Shown one piece after another: positions 6,638 to 36,304 of a stretch of 64,000 bases of DNA. Numbering within the stretch: position 1 is the first letter of the stretch; each line of letters starts with the position of its first letter. The position numbers and the translations under genes are program-made. The stretch covers positions 41,058,427 to 41,122,426 of the forward strand of contig OX031065.1 in NCBI GenBank assembly GCA_943736015.1, written 5' to 3'. Under the pieces are notes generated by a model, which was given only the letters and a program-made list of their open reading frames with translations, had not been told where the DNA came from and did no database searches. The DNA is from Tridacna crocea (lineage: Eukaryota; Mollusca; Bivalvia; Cardiida; Cardiidae).

Positions 6638-7687
6638 ATCTGCACTGGTAGCCATTGCAAAGCAAATTGTCCTTGGCAATTTAGTTGAGCCTGGTAGCTC
6701 AGTCATAAGTGTGCAGGACTTGAGAACAAAGGGTCGTGAGATTGATCGCTGGCTTGGCCAGTGTCTGTCCGAGGATTGATTATAATCATTGCGATGGTAT
6801 TCATTCTTCTCCCTCAGCTGATCATTGCATGTGGGAAAGCAGCCAGTGGCTTGGAAATAATGTACAGAATTCTAGTGAAAAAAAGACTACACGATTTAGG
6901 AACTGGAAAGCACAAATAGGAGAACAGGCTGCTGAGAAGTAATTGCATCATTCAGTCAAAACCAAAAATTTGACCCATTTTCGCAAAACCAGTGTCGCCA
7001 GTATTGTCGACGATCTTAAACTGCCACAAATACATTTAGTGAACTAAATGTATATATGTAAAATTAATATTCAAAGAATACTTTAAATCAATAATTGACA
7101 AAGAAGATAATCTATTTACCAAAAATATAAAGAAATTTTGGGGTCAAAATGCTGCTAGTAGCAAATTTCCGCATGTCTCCACAACAAATTGACATTTTGT
7201 AGCTCTGAAATTTTAAATATGAAACTTTCATCGAATACAGTTATTTTACTAAGGTAAAGACATGGTAGCTATCAGCTAACTAAGGGCATTTTTTGGGTCC
7301 TGATTTGTTTAGTTTTTCCTTCTGGCAAATTTTTTCGACGTTGTCAAAATAGACCTCACCTACCGTAACGATTTTTACAACCTCTGCAAACTGTGTTAAT
7401 ACATATGTAGAGCTTTAGAAAATGCGCTATTTTCTTCATAAAATGTGAATTCCTTTGGTACATACAGAAAAATGTAAATGCGTGTGAAGAACATGTGAAA
7501 ATTGCTGCATGAAGTCACACCATGTTTTGTCGCAATTTAGAACCTCACCTCTGTAACTAGAAAATGTCCTATTGTGATTACATTTGTTTTCTATATCAAG
7601 TCACCATATCTCCATGTCGTATTTCCCCCATTTTTGCATTTGTTCAAGTTTTATTTCGTTTCATTCGGACACAATAGGTTGAAATTC
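6638..7687. other. No gene seen; AT-rich spacer
   Basis: Overlapping frames at 6540-6942 run out of the HLE-2 end and have no recognised domain. Two sites resembling CACCTCCGTAAC (near 7357 and 7546) belong to a recurrent motif described in the findings. Confidence 0.4.
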
Positions 7688-9211
7688 ATTTTTAGCTCCA
7701 CTGGCCGAAGGCCAGCGGGCTTATGTCATGGCCCGTTGTCCGTCGTGCGTGCGTCCGTCCGTCCGTGCGTCCGTCCGTCCGTCTGTCCGTGCGTTAACTT
7801 TTTCTTTAAACATCTTCTTCTCTGAAACTACCCATCCAATTTTGATGAAACTTCACAGAAATGATCCTGCCATGGTCCTCTTTAGAATTTCTTGAAAGAA
7901 TTAAATTCCTTCAAAAACTCTGGTTGCCATGGCAACAAAACTGAAAAATTTTGAAAATCTTTGAAAATCTTCTTGTCTGAAACCATAAGGCCTAGAGCTA
8001 CCAAATTTGGCATGTAGCTTTATCTAGTGGACCTCTACCAAGTTTCTTCAAATTATAGTCCTGGGGTCAAAATTGGCCCCGCCCCGGGGGTAACAAGTTT
8101 TACATGGGCTTATATAGGGAGAACTTCAAAATTCTTCTTCCACCTAGCCATAGGGCCTAGGGCTACCAAATTTGGCATGTAGCTTTATCTAGTGGACCTC
8201 TACCAAGGGTTTCCAACTTATAGCCCAGGGGTCAAATTTGGCCCCGCCCCCGGGGGGTAACAAATTTTACATGGGCTTATATAGGGAAAACTTTCAAAAT
8301 CTTGTTGCACCTAGCTATAAGGACTAGGGCTATCAAATTTTGCATGTAGCTTTATCTAGGGGGTCTCTACCAAGGGTGCCCAAAAGTATAGCCCTGGGGT
8401 TGAATTTAGCCCCCGTCACAGGGAATCACAAGTTTTGCATTGGCTTATATAGGGAAACTTTAATAATCTACTTGTACATAGTCATAAGGCCTAGGGCTAC
8501 CAAATTTTGCATGTAGCTTTATCTAATGGGCTTCTACCAAGAGAGCCAAAATTTTAACTTTGGGGGTCAAGTTTGACCCCATGCCAGGGGTCACAAGTTT
8601 AATATTGGTTTTATAAACCTGTCTCATGGGTCACATATTTTACAGGGCCTTTTATTGAGCAAACTTGTTTTACAGGGCTTTTTATTGGGCAAGATTCAAA
8701 AATCTTCGTGTTTATAACCACACATTCTAGCTTTATATTGTAGGTCTGGGGTCAAAATTGGCTCCATCCAGGGATCACAAGTTTAACATGGGCCTCAAGA
8801 TATAGTCACTTTAATTTATACATTAATCAAGGGAAATAACTCTTTTTATGAAAGATAAAGTTTAGTACTATTTACCTCCCTTGATTATCAAACTGCATTG
8901 ATACATGATTGATGCTAGACATTAAGTTTTTTGATAAAAAATATTCTGTTTTCAAGTGTTATTCATTTTTTTGATGCTAATAGTTATGCTCACATGAGGT
9001 GAATAATAAATTCAGAGTAAGGTTTCTATCATTCAGCTTATTTTTCCAAGGATGTTACCTTTCATGCTAATGAATGAACCTGCTTGTACTGCCTGACAGC
9101 GTTCATTGTTTTTGAAGGCCCTCTTTTTCATGGTCATGAACACTTCAATTTGTGTGGTAAAGGGTTAAAAAGCCAGTGGAGCGATACAGGGCCATCATGG
9201 CCCTCTTGTTT
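7688..9211 (+). mobile_element. HLE-3, Helentron-like element (CCACTGG type)
   Basis: The 5' end is TTTTTAGCTCCACTGGC with the hairpin CTGGCCGAAGGCCAG and a CCGT-rich microsatellite at 7738-7795. The body has units of 130-170 bp marked by TTTGGCATGTAGC and GGCCCCGCCCC. The 3' end is GCCAGTGGAGCGATACA, GGGCCATCATGGCCC, CTCTTGTTT. GTTGCCATGGCAAC, a perfect X-box palindrome, is at 7923-7936. The element is complete. Confidence 0.7.
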
Positions 9212-9410
9212 ATTCACCCCTCCGTAACGAAATAAAATTTTGAACCATACCCCTGTAACTAGTGCGAATATAACATCAAATTGCTTCTTAGAAAACTCTG
9301 TTACATCATGCGCGATGTATATGACATTAACTATGACCTTGCTGACGAAAAAAGTTTAGATTTAGAAGAAAGAAGAATTAATAAAAACAAGGTTAAGTCT
9401 TGAATTTTGT

Positions 9411-10951
9411 TTTTAGCTCCACTGGCCGAAGGCCAGCGAGCTTATGTCATGGCCCGTTGTCCGTCGTGCGTCCGTCCGTCCGTCCGTCCGTCCGTCCGTC
9501 CGTCCGTCCGTGCGTCCGTCCGTCCGTCCGTGCGTTAACTTTTTCTTTAAACATCTTCTTCTCTGAAACTACCCATCCAATTTTGATGAAACTTCACAGA
9601 AATGATCCTGCCATGGTCCTCTTCAGAATTTCTTGAAAGAATTTAATTCCTTCAAAAACTCTGGTTGCCATGGCAACAAAACTGAAAAAAATTGAAAATC
9701 TTTGAAAATCTTCTTGTCTGAAACCGTAAGGCCTAGGGCTACCAAATTTGGCATGTAGCTTTATCTAGGGGACCTCTACCAAGTTTCTTCAAATTATAGC
9801 CCTGGGGTCAAAATTGGCCCCGCCCCGGGGGTAACAAGTTTTACATGGGCTTATATAGGAAGAACTTTAAAATTCTTCTTCCACCTAGCCATAGGGCCTA
9901 GGGCTACCAAATTTGGCATGTAGCTTTATCTAGTGGACCTCTACCAAGGGTGTCCAACTTATAGCCCAGGGGTCAAATTTGGCCCCGCCCTGGGGGGGTA
10001 ACAAATTTTACATGGGCTTATACAGGGAAAACTTTCAAAATCTTCTCGCACCTAGCTATAAGGGCTAGGTCTATCAAATTTTGCATGTAGCTTTATCTAG
10101 GGGGTCTCTACCAAGGGTGCCCAAATTATAGCCCTAGGGTCAAATTTAGCCCCGTCACAGGGGCTCACAAGTTTTACATGGGCTTATATAGGGAAACTTT
10201 AATAATCTACTTGTACATAGCCATAAGGCCTAGGGCTACCAAATTTTGCATGTAGCTTTATCTAATGGGCCTCTACCAAGAGGGCCCAAATTTTAACTTT
10301 GGGGGTCAAGTTTGACCCCACCCCAGGGGTCACAAGTTTTATATTGGCTTTATAAACCTGTCTCATGGGTCACATATTTTACAGGGCCTTTTATTAAGCA
10401 AACTTGTTTTACAGGGCTTTTTATTGGGCAAGATTCAAAAATCTTCGTGTTTATAAACACACATTGTAGTTTCATATTGTAGGTCTGAGGTCAAAATTGG
10501 CTCCATCCAGGGATCACAAGTTTTACATGGGCTTCAAAATATAGTCACTTCAATTTAAACATTAAGCAAGGGAAATAACTCTTTGTATGAAAGATAAAGT
10601 TTGGTACTATTTACCTCCCTTGATGATTATCAAACTGCATTGATACATGATTGGTGCTAGACATTAAGTTTTTTTATAGAAAATATTCTGTTTTCAAGTG
10701 TGATTCATTTTGATGCTAATAGTTATGTTCACATGAGTTGAATAATAAATTCAGAGTAAGGTTTCTATCATTCAGCTTATTTTTCCAAGGATTTTACCTT
10801 TTTCATGCTTACGAGTTAACCTGCTTGTACTGCCTGACAGTGTTTATTGTTTTTGAAGGCCCTCTTTTTTAGGGTCATGAACGCTTGAATTTGCGTGGTA
10901 AAGGGTTAAAAAGCCAGTGGAGCGATACAGGGCCATCATGGCCCTCTTGTT
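9411..10951 (+). mobile_element. HLE-4, near-identical sister of HLE-3
   Basis: Same ends, unit order and X-box (9664-9677) as HLE-3, with few differences by eye and a longer CCGT run. About 200 bp of unrelated sequence separates the two, so this is not a simple tandem duplication including flanks. Confidence 0.7.
9462..9533. repeat. CCGT microsatellite in HLE-4
   Basis: About 17 CCGT repeats with TGCG interruptions, placed just after the 5' hairpin. Several other HLEs here have shorter versions at the same place. Confidence 0.9.
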
Positions 10952-10954
10952 TTT

Positions 10955-11854
10955 TTATCCTGCAGTATGAAAATTTATTTTTTTTTTTGCGAAGACACAA
11001 TCTACCATGGTAGAAATATTGCTTAAAAGTGAACAAGAATAGATTTTAAGGTCCTGCTATAAAATACACTCGACCCTTTCTACTTCCTTTATGGAGGTTA
11101 TATAAATTTATATCTAAAACAATCTTTTGTGTTACGTTAACAAAATGATGTCCAGGTTAAAAGAGGACATGGTAAAATTAATTCAACATGTCTGCGTTTA
11201 TGTTTCTTCTGTACACAGAAAAAAACATTGTATGACATACCTTTTTTTCCCTAAATCCGTTACGGAGGTGAGAAAACGGTAGACAAGTGGTTGATACTGC
11301 ATCACATGAATAAATTCATATAGAATTACATTTTCATGCTGTGAACTTTTATAGAACTCATAGAATGTGTTGGAACATTGTAAAATTTAACAGTTTTATC
11401 GATTTATACAAGTTTAATTGCTCATCGAAAAACTGTAGCGGTGGTGAGAAAATATGTTACGGATGGGAGAATCGAATATTGATGGCTGCTATGTAGAGAA
11501 GGGTTCTGATATACTCATTTACAAGATATAATGGTTAATTTGGTGCATTTGTGGTTAATTTCATTCCAAAAGAAAGTACAATTATGCTATCAGTTAGAAA
11601 AAAACATAACAAAACAATGTATGAATTCTGAACCAAATACTGAGTTTCAAATTGAGAGACAATGATCAAAAGAAAATCGAAGTTGCTCTTGAAGAAAAGG
11701 CTGAAATGTGTGACCTGCAGGCGATTTGATGTTATTTTAAAATTATCAGATTTCCATTACAGTATAACAACATAAAGGTTTACAAGCTTAAAAAAAAAAA
11801 CAGTTTATGTTTATTTGAGTTTATGTTTGGAAAGACACAACAGTCGAAGAACTC
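10955..11854. other. No gene seen; AT-rich spacer
   Basis: Contains GTTACGGAGGTGAG near 11265 and GTTACGGATGGGAG near 11457, reverse-strand relatives of the motif seen at 7.3-9.3 kb. No other structure was found. Confidence 0.4.
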
Positions 11855-25871: not shown

Positions 25872-25875
25872 TTAA

Positions 25876-26324
25876 CCTTTTACCAGACAACAAAGTTTTA
25901 TCACCATCCAAATTGAAAGCATTTGCAGACAACAATTTCACCGTGGCTCAAGTGGTGCAATTGCTAGTTGATAGAGTAGAAAAAAATGTTGGACAAGCAA
26001 AGGGGGATTGGTGTAAATTTTCACTATGGACCAACATCTCTTTCACTACAGGACAAAATGTAATTAACATTCATCTTGTTAAGCGACAGACAATAGTTAT
26101 TTGATTTTATTTCATGAAACGAGATGTTAGCAAAAAAGGGGACTAAATGTATAATTTCATTATAGACCAATTACATTCAGTTTGCCTATCTATCCTCCTT
26201 GACGGATATCTTCTTAAGTCCTTGGCATTTATGAAACTTCAAACATGTTTTCCTTAGGGTAGTCTATTTTCCCACAATGTTTTCAAAAGGCTTTTTTCCA
26301 AAGGTCGTATTGTGTGGTAAAGGG
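25876..26324 (-). mobile_element. TTAA-hairpin MITE with hairpin tip replaced
   Basis: Normal ends (CCTTTTACCAGACAAC; TGTGTGGTAAAGGG) and TTAA at 25872-25875 and 26325-26328. The outer arms (GTAGAAAAAAATGTTGG; TTCCCACAATGTTTTC) are present, but the inner palindrome is gone. In its place is a 270-bp block copied from elsewhere. Without the block, 179 bp remain, about 42 fewer than canonical. Confidence 0.8.
25999..26268 (+). repeat. 270-bp patch identical to 28435-28704
   Basis: Identical base for base by eye over 270 bp to 28435-28704, where the same bases form part of a longer repeat that also occurs at 47.8-48.4 kb. The edges coincide with no element end. Short shared bases at both junctions (AAAGG on the left, TT on the right) suggest repair by template copying. 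Confidence 0.8.
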
Positions 26325-26670
26325 TTAAGCTACGGATTGTTTTGGAAGGGGGGCTAAGTGCTGTATGGTAAATCCATTGTTACACAAAATAATGTTGTAA
26401 CATATTTATACCCCCGCAAAGCGAACGATTTCAGGTATACTGGAATCGGCCAGTCTGTCCGTGTGTCCAGCCGTCCATCCGTCCGTGTGTCTGTCCATGT
26501 GTCCTTCTTATGTGGACCTATACCAAATATGATCCTGGGTCCAAAGTGGCCCCGCTCCAGTGGTCACAAGTTTGAATATGAAACATGAAATTCCTCTGTT
26601 CTGAAAGAAGATGGAAACTTCGTACGTGTGTTCCTTATGATAGTCTTCAAATAACAATATTTTACCTTTT

Positions 26671-28410
26671 TAGCACACCTGAGCACGAAGTGCTCAAGGT
26701 GAGCTATTGTGATCGATTAATGTCTGTCATCCGTCTCTCCTTCCGTCCGTCAATTCACAATTACAAAAGAATCTTCTCCTAAACTAACAATCAAATTTCA
26801 GTCAAACTTTACAGAAATGATCCTTAGGTGATGCACTTTCAAAACACTTAAAAGATTTAAATTCCACGAAGAACTCTGGTTGCCATGGCAACCAAGTGTA
26901 AAAACTTTAAAAATCTTTTCGTCCAAAACTGTAAGGGCTAGAGCTCTCATATTTGGCATGTAGCATCATCTAATGGCCCTCTACCAAAAGACTTCAAATC
27001 ATGGCTCTAATGTTGAAATTGGTCCTATGTTGTGGGTTCTCAGATTTTACATAGAGATAAAGAGGGAAATCTTAGAAAATCTTCTTGTCCCAAACTGTAA
27101 GGGCTAGAGCTCTCATATTTGGCATGTAGCATCATCTAGTGGCCCTCTACTAAAACACTTCAAATTATCGCCCTAGTGCAGAAATTAGCCCTATGTTGTG
27201 GGGTCTCTGATTTCACAAAGAGATAAAGAAGGAAATCTTAGAATTTTTTTTATCCCAAACCGTAAGGGCTAGAGCTTTCATATTTGGCATGCAGCATCAT
27301 TTAGTGGCCCTCTACCAAAATACTTCAAATTATGGCCCTGCTGTGAAAATTAAGCCTATGTTGTTGATCTTGGAATTCACATAGAGACAAGGCAGGAAAT
27401 CTTTAAAAACCTTCTTGTCCAAATGGTAATAGCCAGAGCTTTCATATTTGGCATGTAGTGGCCCTCTACTAAAATACTTCAATTTATGTCCCTTATGTAA
27501 AGAAATGTCCCTGATGTAAAGAATTGGCCCTATGTTGTGGGTCTCGGATTTCACATAGCGATAGAGAAAGAAATCTTTAAAAGTCTCCTGGTCCCAAACG
27601 GTAATGGCCAGAGCTTTCATATTTGGCATGTAGCATCATCTAGTGGCCTTCTACCAATAGACCCCAAATTATGGCCTTAGTGTTGAAAATGGCCCTATGT
27701 TATGGGTTCTCGGATTTTACATAGCGATAAAGGAAATCTTAGAAAATCTTCTTCTCCCAAACCATGAGGGCTAGAGCTTTCATATTTGGCATTTAGCATC
27801 ATCTAGTGTCCCTCTACCAAAATACTTCAAATGATGGTCCTGGTGTCAAAGTTAGCCCTATGTTGTTGGTCTCGGATTTCACATAGAGATAAAGAGGGAA
27901 ATCTTTAAAAGTGTTCTTGTGAGCACTCTTGAGACCACATTTCTTGCTAAGCTGAATTGAAAATTGGTTAGAATGTCTGTCTTAATAAAATCTCACATGA
28001 GTCTGCATTGAATGCTTGTTCGGAATATAACTTTGTCATCTCAAGTAAGAACGACTTCAAAATTGGTATGCATGTTTGTTGTGATATTACGGAAAATTGT
28101 GTTCAAGAATAATAACTCTACCTAGCATGGATTTTGAGTAATTCCAATTTGATCTTAAAATAAATAGTATTGTTTGGTTGTCCAGAGTTGAATTTTGAAG
28201 TCTCGAGTCAAGTTGTTTGTTGCATTGCCTGCCCTTTGCAATTATTATACCTCCTTTACAACTGGTTGTGGGATTGCATATCTTGCGACAATTTGCCGCA
28301 CTTGTTTCATCATCATTACCCCTTGAACCTCAATATTTGGTAATTATGGTCGTTGTACTACTGCTTAGTACTCAGGTGAGCGATATAGGACCATCACATG
28401 GTCCTCTTGT
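26671..28410 (+). mobile_element. HLE-7, Helentron-like element nested in HLE-8
   Basis: The 5' end is TTTTTAGCACACCTGAGC with the hairpin GAGCACGAAGTGCTC. Units of about 170 bp follow, marked by GGGCTAGAGCTTTCATATTT (26935-27900). The 3' end is TACTCAGGTGAGCGATA, then the hairpin GGACCATCACATGGTCC and CTCTTGTTT. An X-box palindrome is at 26879-26892. The paralogue at 47799-47822 lacks this element and reads CTCTTTTTCATTAAATG, which fixes the insertion within a T-run. Confidence 0.7.
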
Positions 28411-28434
28411 TTCATTAAATGTCATGTCATTGAA

Positions 28435-28704
28435 AAAGGGGGATTGGTGTAAATTTTCACTATGGACCAACATCTCTTTCACTACAGGACAAAATGTAAT
28501 TAACATTCATCTTGTTAAGCGACAGACAATAGTTATTTGATTTTATTTCATGAAACGAGATGTTAGCAAAAAAGGGGACTAAATGTATAATTTCATTATA
28601 GACCAATTACATTCAGTTTGCCTATCTATCCTCCTTGACGGATATCTTCTTAAGTCCTTGGCATTTATGAAACTTCAAACATGTTTTCCTTAGGGTAGTC
28701 TATT
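28435..28704 (+). repeat. Source-like copy of the 270-bp patch
   Basis: Part of HLE-8. In HLE-12 the homologous stretch jumps from TTTTCACT (about 47858) to GGCATTTATG, lacking about 180 bp that are present here. The stretch is therefore continuous element sequence and not a unit in its own right. Confidence 0.7.
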
Positions 28705-29213
28705 GATACAATTTTGTTTTGTAAGATGTGCCATGGAAAAAGCGGTTACCTTTCACATACTGGACTTGTTGAGCCGCGATAGATCAGTCAGTATTAATGT
28801 TGTGAGCTGTTAGTCTGGGGTTCCCAGTTTGCACTGGCTTGATTACTGTCTCAGCCAACATCCTTTGACATTTGATCAAAAGTTACTGAGACAAGTCTCA
28901 TTTGTGTCTTTCCAATGAGCCAATGATGTTTAAATATGTCGTTCGACCACCATTTTGACCAGGAAATTAATGCCTGGCCTTCAAAGTTAATTCAATCCCT
29001 TACCATACAATCCTGACTTTCAATGACCCTAAATAAAAAAGTTTGTGAAAGCATTTTCGGAAAAGAAGAAAATGCGTTTTGCACAGTAACATACCCTGTG
29101 TCAGGGTTATTTGGCTTTGAACTTTTATATTTGGTATTTATCTTCACTGTAGACCTTTACTGCTTAGTACTCAGATGAGCGATATAGGACCATCATGGTC
29201 CTCTTGTTTTTTG

Positions 29214-29548
29214 GTTGGAATGAAATTACTCTGTATAGTTGTAGTAATATTGGTTAATTTTTATCTTACATGTTATTTCTTGCCCCTGGGATACGTTCTT
29301 TACTTAGTTTGTAATTTCATCAAGTTCAGGATTTATTTTACATCCCTATCTTTGCATTTAAATCAACACTGGACACATTACAGATCTTCTACTCAAATAT
29401 GCAACCTTTGACACTTACTCTCTATAGATAGATATCCGTCCATCCCTCTGTCCATATATCCAACCATCCATCCATCTATCCATCTGAAATTCTTAAATGT
29501 AGAGGTAAAGAAAGATTGATAGGGCATGATACATGTATTTGACATGGT
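29214..29548. other. No gene seen; CCAT-rich simple sequence
   Basis: CATCC/CATCT repeats at about 29430-29485. The short frames have no recognised product. Confidence 0.5.
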
Positions 29549-29552
29549 TTAA

Positions 29553-29773
29553 CCCATTACCACACAATCCCTACTTTTGACGCCCCTGAGAAAGAAGCCT
29601 TTTGGAAACACTATGGGAAAAGGAGAAAATGCTGGTAACCAGCATTTTCTCCTTTTCCCACAGTGTTTTCTACCCTTCCCAGAACAAATTTCTATTTTTC
29701 GGTCACCTTTATTTTGTGGTCTGCAAATGCTTTCAATTTTGACTAGTCTAGAATTTTCTTGTGTGGTATAGAG
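29553..29773 (+). mobile_element. TTAA-hairpin MITE
   Basis: 221 bp between TTAA at 29549-29552 and 29774-29777. Hairpin perfect in the tip; the stem base varies (CACTATGGG against CCCACAGTG). A GACA/GAGA-rich run follows at 29795-29835. Confidence 0.85.
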
Positions 29774-30127
29774 TTAAAGAATGACTGGTTGAAAGAGAGA
29801 GACAAACAGACAGACAGATACAAAGAGAGAGACTGGAAAAAATGAAATAAAGGGAAAATGTTATTCAAACATTTGGGCGTTGCCCTAAAACTTTGAATTG
29901 ATGAATTTATTATCACATAAACCAAAATCTTTTAAGGACAGGTTCAAATAAAACATCTAGAAAAAGTGAAATTGAATTTTCGATTTTTTGATGTTGAATG
30001 ATCCATACAACCATTCTAGCTGTCAGAAAAATGATAAATGGACAACTTGCAAGAGCGTATCAATAAGATTTCACAGCGTTGCTCAGCAATACTGAAATTA
30101 ACTCTTGGTCTACTTTCCTGACTTTAA

Positions 30128-34805: not shown

Positions 34806-36304
34806 TTTTTAGCTCCACTGGCTGAAGGCCAGCAGGCTTATGTCATGGCCTGTTGTACGTTGTTTGTCCGTCCGTCAGTCTGTGCGTCTGTCAGTGTGTT
34901 AACTTTTTCTTTAAACATCTTCTTCTCTGAAATTACCCATCCAATTTTGATGAAACTTCACAGAAACAATCCTGCTCTGATCCTTTTCAGAATTTATAGA
35001 AAGAATTTAATCCCTTCAAAAACTCTGGTTGCCATGGCAACAAAACGTAAAAACTTTGAAAATCTTTGAAAATCTTCTTGTCTTAAACCGTAAGGCCTAG
35101 GGCTACAAATTTGGCATGTAGCTTTATCTAGTGGACCTTTCCCAAGTTTCTTCAAATTATAGCCCTGGGGTCAAAATTGGCCCCGCCCCAGGGGTCACAA
35201 GTTTTACATGGGCTTATTTAGGGAGAACTTTAAAGTTCTCTTCTACCTAGGCATAGGGCCTAGGGCTACCAAATTTGGCATGTTGTTTTATTTAGTGGAC
35301 CTCTACCAAGAGTGTCTAAATTATAGCCCTTGGGTCAAAATTGGCCCCGCCCCGGGAGTAACAAGTTTTACATGGGCTTATATAGGGAGACCTTAAAAAT
35401 TCTTCTTCCACCTAGCCATAGGGCCTAGGGCTACCAACTTTGGCATGTAGCTTTATCTAGTGGACCTCTACCAAGGGTGTCCAAATTATAGCCCAGTAGT
35501 CAAATTTGGCCCTGCCCCGGGGGGTAACAAATTTTATATGGGCTTATATAGGGAAACTTTAATAATCTACTTGTACATAGCCATAAGGCCTTGGGCTACC
35601 AAATTTTGCATGTAGCTTTATCTAATGGGCCTCTACCAAGAGGGCCCAAATTTTAACTTTGGGGGTCACGTTTGACCCCACCCCAGGGGTCACTAGTTTT
35701 ACATTGGCTTTATAAACCTGTCTCATGGGTCACATATCTTACAGGGACTTTTATTGAGCAAACTTGTTTTACAAGGCTTTTTATTGGGCAGGATTAAAAA
35801 ATCTTTGTGTTTATAACCACACATTCTAGTTTCATATTGTAGGTCTGGGGTCAAAATTGGCTCCATCCAGGGATTACAAGTTTAACATGGGCTTCAAAAT
35901 AGTCATTTCAATTGAAACATTAATCAAGGGAAATAACTCTTTATGAAAGATAAAGTTTGGTACTATTTATCTCCCTTGATTATCAAACTGCATTGATACA
36001 TGATTGGTGCTAGACATTAAGTTTTTCGATTGAAAATATTCTGTTTTCAAGTGTGATTCATTTTGATCCTAATAGTTACGCTCACATGAGGTGAATAATA
36101 AATTCAGAGTAAGGTTTCTATCCTTCAGCTTATTTTTCCAAGGATTTTATCTTTCATGCTAATGAATTAACCTGCTTGTATTGCCTGACAGTGTTCATTG
36201 TTTGTGAAGGCCCTCTTTTTCATGGTCATGAAACACTTTAATTTGTGTGGTAAAGGGTTAAAAAGCCAGTGGAGTAATACAGGGCCATTATGGCCCTCTT
36301 GTTT
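34806..36304 (+). mobile_element. HLE-5, Helentron-like element (CCACTGG type)
   Basis: Same layout as HLE-3 and HLE-4: the 5' hairpin CTGGCTGAAGGCCAG, a short CCGT-like stretch, GGCATGTAGC units, and the 3' end GCCAGTGGAGTAATACA, GGGCCATTATGGCCC, CTCTTGTTT. X-box at 35028-35041. More diverged, with one unit fewer. Confidence 0.7.

Follow-up and report, generated by a model that had tools for sequence, protein, structure and literature searches.

Single-copy Pack-TIRs of animals, in which terminal inverted repeats (TIRs) enclose captured internal DNA, have been explained by gap filling that is independent of transposition (Tan et al. 2021, PMC8277862). In that account the parental sequence lay within 15 kb of the filler in 160 of 281 cases, most of these at less than 5 kb; microhomology, with a median of 2 bp, was present at one or both breakpoints in 190 of the 281, and the median gap was 4.6% of the element. 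The skew towards the interior was ascribed to fragile sites and secondary structures were named as a possible cause of breakage, while 'hairpin' and 'palindrom' have no occurrence in the main text of the paper (PMC8277862). Two further bodies of work are close to the present case. Experimental templated insertions of 73-414 bp in human cells, drawn from 18 of 24 chromosomes, were reported to be RNA-derived (PMC5110952), and in yeast the attack of Mre11 is reported to be confined to hairpins with loops of less than 9 nt, and cruciforms to be cleaved at or near their axis (PMC8053094). Described here is a miniature inverted-repeat transposable element (MITE) of the bivalve Tridacna crocea (assembly GCA_943736015.1) in which the hairpin tip is replaced by 270 bp that appear to have been copied from a dispersed repeat 2.4 kb away. 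It lies in a stretch of 64,000 nucleotides (contig OX031065.1, positions 41,058,427 to 41,122,426, forward strand), referred to as the window, whose own numbering is used throughout.

Both TTAA target-site duplications and both terminal sequences of the MITE are present around the filler. A repeat finder run on the window gave 270 of 270 identical bases between 25999-26268 and 28435-28704, in direct orientation. When the window was compared with itself by BLAST (716 hits at E up to 1e-10, with the low-complexity filter on), a single further hit, of 38 bp, reached 100%. Outside the patch the likeness fell to approximately chance level, the 60 nt on the 5' side matching the donor flank at 13 of 60 positions and the 60 nt on the 3' side at 19 of 60. 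The donor has the flanks of its repeat family on both sides and the copy in the MITE lacks them. The patch is preceded by ...TTGGACAAGC and followed by TTCCCACAAT, and terminates in GTAGTCTATT, with neither a target-site duplication nor a poly(A) tract.

The genome (1.05 Gb in 31 contigs) was searched with the MITE and its patch, and the figures given for copies of the patch refer to the best 40 of 3974 candidates scored. Of 41 matches, one was the locus itself, one the donor at 100%, 38 were places with 90-94% identity in the patch part and one was a weak match to the left arm. The 38 other scored copies differ from the donor slice at 17-23 nt, and three letters of the donor that are absent from all 38 are carried by the patch. 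The identity is thus peculiar to the donor and, elsewhere, matches continue across both edges of the patch, so that the local copy would be the template. Among the candidates scored, the donor and the direction of copying, from donor to MITE, are well supported at the level of sequence.

The first genome search had shown the same block ends at most places, as would be expected if the 270-bp block were a mobile unit carrying its own ends. These shared ends were an effect of the query: once the neighbourhood of the donor was included they disappeared, and the matches ran beyond both patch edges at 38 of 38 other scored places. With the query effect removed, the patch proves to correspond to an inner part of a longer dispersed repeat, of which the genome holds at least 39 copies and most long BLAST hits span from approximately 28406 to approximately 29210. 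A mobile block is refuted for the scored copies, the block moreover showing no target duplication, and its probability is considered negligible. The first-pass annotation had given the base-for-base identity, with its coordinates, and had taken the block as an arbitrary slice of a longer repeat; both claims held. It had also named a mobile block with own ends and target duplication as the contrary outcome, and own ends were seen in 0 of the 38 copies.

The sequence lost from the MITE was determined by comparison with a subfamily consensus, taken as the majority of 20 related MITE copies after alignment. The consensus is 229 bp long including both TTAAs and contains a palindrome with a predicted 32-bp stem and 3-nt loop (-54.7 kcal/mol, RNA parameters). 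A search with only the left arm gave, among the copies scored, 39 others at 84-89% identity, 34 of which match up to base 126 of 127; the related MITE used for comparison (Table 1) has 39 other scored full-length copies in the genome at 95-97%. In the patched copy the left side of the stem is kept to 12-13 nt before the dyad and the sequence resumes approximately 15-17 nt after it. The loss amounts to 28-31 nt of the 229 bp, or 12-14% of the element; in the reconstructed palindrome its midpoint falls 1-2.5 bp from the dyad. Strong hairpins were defined by at least 23 of 28 paired stem positions (the threshold was first set at 24) and a loop of at most 8 nt, and 20 were found in the window. An insertion placed at random would fall as close to the axis of one of these with a probability of approximately 0.002, a post hoc figure, since the case was chosen by a reader who had seen the hairpin. 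Against the consensus, the bases shared at the junctions are A (1 bp) on the left and TT (2 bp) on the right.

These comparisons uphold the earlier description of a MITE that retains its ends and both TTAAs (25872-25875 and 26325-26328) and has lost its inner palindrome, as judged against the 20 related copies. The junctions had been described as sharing 2-5 bp; the shared sequence is indeed short, and its size is smaller than had been stated. The position of the loss also bears on the possibility that an assembly error put a copy of the repeat slice into the MITE. Perfect identity over a short distance is what such an error might produce; the window contains no N, and one would not expect an artefact to land so close, 2.5 bp at most, to the dyad of a hairpin, so that this explanation deserves very little credence.

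Table 1. Features of the patched MITE, its donor and the MITE used for comparison (window coordinates).
Feature	Position	Strand	Basis
Left TTAA target-site duplication	25872..25875	+	Seen directly in sequence
Left MITE arm, kept to the middle of the palindrome stem	25876..25998	+	Alignment to subfamily consensus
Putative templated patch in place of the 28-31 nt hairpin tip	25999..26268	+	270/270 identity to 28435-28704
Right MITE arm with a separate 11-bp deletion	26269..26324	+	Alignment to subfamily consensus
Right TTAA target-site duplication	26325..26328	+	Seen directly in sequence
Donor slice (probable template)	28435..28704	+	100% identical to patch; next best scored genome copy 94%
Dispersed repeat holding the donor slice, limits approximate, ~0.8 kb	28406..29212	+	BLAST coverage by 38 other loci
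Related MITE with intact palindrome, for comparison only	29549..29775	-	Arms 29606-29636/29638-29668, 97% complementary

Relative to the subfamily consensus, the left arm with its TTAA carries 16 changes in 127 positions, and the patch differs from the donor at 0 of 270. The patch would therefore have been acquired long after the insertion of the MITE, unless later differences were erased by gene conversion, and on these counts the MITE looks older than its patch. The first reading of the perfect identity as the sign of a recent event fits the same figures, though gene conversion could keep the two copies identical. The age of the arm also concerns abortive gap repair after excision by a transposase, in which the arms would be recopied from the sister chromatid and the centre filled from nearby DNA. 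This is published as one route to transposon fillers (PMC8277862), and a piggyBac-type transposase family is represented in the genome by 118 matches to PF13843. Such repair should delete more, towards the termini (PMC8277862), and is for this reason less likely here, where 28-31 of 229 bp were lost at the dyad; a MITE arm with 16 differences in 127 positions also argues against it, and we regard this route as improbable.

The account that we favour, and consider probable, is breakage of the hairpin at its tip and subsequent filling of the gap by copying from the repeat 2.4 kb away. An old, TTAA-flanked MITE at 25.9 kb would have carried a near-perfect palindrome, which extruded, either as a hairpin or as a cruciform, and was broken at the tip. 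Trimming would then have shortened the two ends by approximately 13 and 15 nt, after which a free 3' end would have copied 270 nt of the unrelated dispersed repeat in direct orientation and the new strand would have been joined to the other broken end through the 1-2 bp of shared sequence. Breakage at an extruded hairpin with templated filling had been suggested from the outset, and is supported by the donor, the direction of copying, the centre-exact position and the short junctions. These features and the size of the deletion can be read from the sequence; a double-strand break as the lesion, the polymerase and the order of the steps are inferred.

The engineered Alu palindromes used to study axis breakage in yeast are reportedly longer than the MITE stem. 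The lesion described here resembles axis breakage of palindromes and cruciforms in that it lies about the symmetry axis of a palindrome with a short loop, and the predicted 3-nt loop fits the reported limit of Mre11 attack to loops of less than 9 nt; it differs in that the stem is a natural one of approximately 32 bp and the outcome is a templated patch, as opposed to the breaks and gross rearrangements scored in that work (PMC8053094).

The main rival to a break at the tip is stalling of a replication fork at the hairpin with template switching, in which the growing strand would switch to the repeat 2.4 kb away, copy 270 nt of it and resume beyond the hairpin with no double-strand break. The sequence product would be the same, and short junctions, a nearby donor and direct orientation are equally predicted; moreover, many of the rows inspected by eye, uncounted, in the survey described below resemble self-templated rearrangements within palindromes. 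Synthesis blocked by a hairpin might, on general grounds, halt where the stem begins, and the patch starts inside the stem, at a distance of 12-13 nt from the dyad. The argument is weak, and fork stalling is held to be possible, if rather unlikely.

Among the known systems, the patched MITE works like Pack-TIR gap filling without being a strict Pack-TIR. In common with Pack-TIRs it is a TIR element with intact ends, an internal break, a nearby parent and capture long after insertion, and its junctions share 1 and 2 bp against a published median of 2 bp (PMC8277862). Both TIR ends surround an internal sequence of more than 100 bp, and the filler has a unique best parental copy of similar length, at 100% against 94% for the next best of the copies scored. 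The filler is, however, part of a dispersed repeat, and the Pack-TIR definition requires filler that is not derived from a transposable element (PMC8277862); the strict definition therefore does not apply, and the likeness is one of mechanism. The gap is also a larger part of the element and the break is placed at the hairpin dyad.

The locus likewise resembles class 2 templated insertions, which have a template at a distinct genomic place, a length range that includes 270 bp, no target duplication, no poly(A), and microhomology with microdeletion at the junctions (PMC5110952). To judge from the sequence, the patched MITE has the class 2 features that were tested. If the patch shared the origin reported for the experimental inserts, a reverse transcript of the donor repeat would have been captured at the break. 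A donor 2.4 kb away contrasts with inserts drawn from 18 of 24 chromosomes (PMC5110952), and the patch shows neither a poly(A) tract nor a target duplication, although class 2 events lack these too; an RNA-derived patch is accordingly judged highly improbable.

Whether the tips of this palindrome are generally fragile was addressed by searching the genome for both inner 11-bp words of the stem as exact matches. With a gap of 25-55, 87,538 places were found, approximately one per 12 kb, and a reversed control gave 0; since the pattern is its own reverse complement, the count per strand is the number of places. The rows listed for this near-intact class include damaged tips as well. Shortened tips (gap 2-29) gave 1865 forward and 1843 reverse matches, gaps of 60-120 gave 809 and 795, gaps of 121-181 gave 1251 and 1227, and gaps of 260-320 gave 5015 and 4983. 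Many places match on both strands, so that the true number lies between the count for one strand and the sum. Among rows of the 260-320 class inspected by eye, most were two neighbouring MITEs, and the class was unusable for counting fillers.

Tips were examined at 58 distinct places among the listed matches with gaps of 121-181, all on contig C1. Their 116 arms comprised 72 that reach the other arm and 44 that are broken; four broken arms, all from one recurrent subfamily, were excluded before the count, leaving 40. The expectation was that 5.6 of these would end no more than 3 bp from the dyad, and 9.3 no more than 5 bp; the counts were 11 (p=0.018, uncorrected) and 16, respectively. One of the loci, L099 (C1:42648782-42649183), is a local tandem duplication with a period of 139 and 94.7% identity whose junction lies approximately 2 bp or less from the MITE dyad, and is counted as support for breakage at the tip.

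Several points weigh against breakage with gap filling. Five of the 15 stem bases adjoining the left junction (25984-25998) differ from the consensus, with which the right arm agrees throughout its inner 22 nt; changes at the left junction are not predicted by the model, and their excess could reflect error-prone repair synthesis. The lost piece, at 12-14% of the element, exceeds the 4.6% median of the published gap-filling set (PMC8277862). The enrichment of broken arms at the dyad is modest, approximately twofold in the first 58 listed places on C1, and falls to 10 of 39 (p=0.038) when one possible nested TTAA insertion is removed. The surveyed places yielded no second clean filler of foreign origin for which a donor was located. 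Two foreign-filler loci picked by eye, L100 and L101, were compared with the 2 kb to each side of them and showed no donor; the filler of L100 gave no hit, and the hits of the L101 filler were all of 28 nt, at 86-89%, and confined to its MITE-like beginning.

That the hairpin tips of this MITE break recurrently in nature and are mended from nearby DNA, some of the mended elements then transposing to found new MITE subfamilies, is put forward tentatively. If so, hairpin breakage would be a source of new subfamilies, such as the recurrent double-palindrome form in which the dyad leads into a reversed right arm. No hairpin-tip patch in a MITE was described in the literature searched, a search of titles and the starts of abstracts with few subscription journals, which does not show absence from print. 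The kind of event is already known and the case is unusually well resolved; the position of the break at the dyad and the scale of the natural library may be new. The published account has gap filling begin at fragile sites in the interior, with secondary structures as a possible cause, apparently without resolving the exact site (PMC8277862); here the lesion is placed within 2.5 bp of a hairpin axis and the template is known. With 87,538 matches to the core of the palindrome, this one genome offers a natural library for measuring break position, template distance and repair outcome.

The survey also revealed other rearranged forms. In a recurrent one (C1 16625437, 39231344 and 30822738) the arm reaches the dyad (GCTGGTT) and is followed by CTTCCGGTCT..., apparently a reversed right arm, which seems to be a tip rearrangement that multiplied. 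Two MITEs, L102 (C1:8.917 Mb) and L109 (1.566 Mb), carry inserts with imperfect target duplications which we take to be tRNA-like, on our own reading and not from a database result. That of L102 stands at the hairpin tip and has the look of an ordinary insertion, unlike the patched MITE.

The element ends TTAACC...GGTTAA in both the patched copy and the consensus. A TTAA target with CC...GG ends suits piggyBac, and the putative assignment as a piggyBac-type MITE is drawn from these ends; no MITE-like termini were seen in the two piggyBac transposase loci inspected. The CC...GG ends do not fit a Kolobok-type MITE, Kolobok combining a TTAA duplication with RR...YY ends (PMC9587614). The deletion in the right arm removes 11 bp near the terminus (CAAAAGTCGTC of the consensus) and is separate from the patch.

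Within the donor repeat, 28991-29075 is a degenerate outer MITE arm with 72% identity to 29548-29632, stopping at GAAAATGC within the palindrome arm. The degenerate half-MITE is likewise present in six other copies of the repeat, and is possibly an older MITE fusion near the hairpin tip inherited by the repeat family. These copies were seen in a local survey with fuzzy anchors (253,520 bases from 89 sources), which yielded 383 anchor hits, a part of them counted under both arm models; 340 extended as far as the other arm and 43 were broken. It was dropped as a test of tip fragility, several broken hits coming from the half-MITE and others from poor anchors. Between patch and donor, 26869-27895 comprises approximately six diverged tandem units of approximately 165 bp each. 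Elsewhere in the window, a 1.5-kb repeat occurs as two neighbouring copies (7679-9214 and 9400-10955, 93% identity) and a third at 34806-36304 (approximately 89%).
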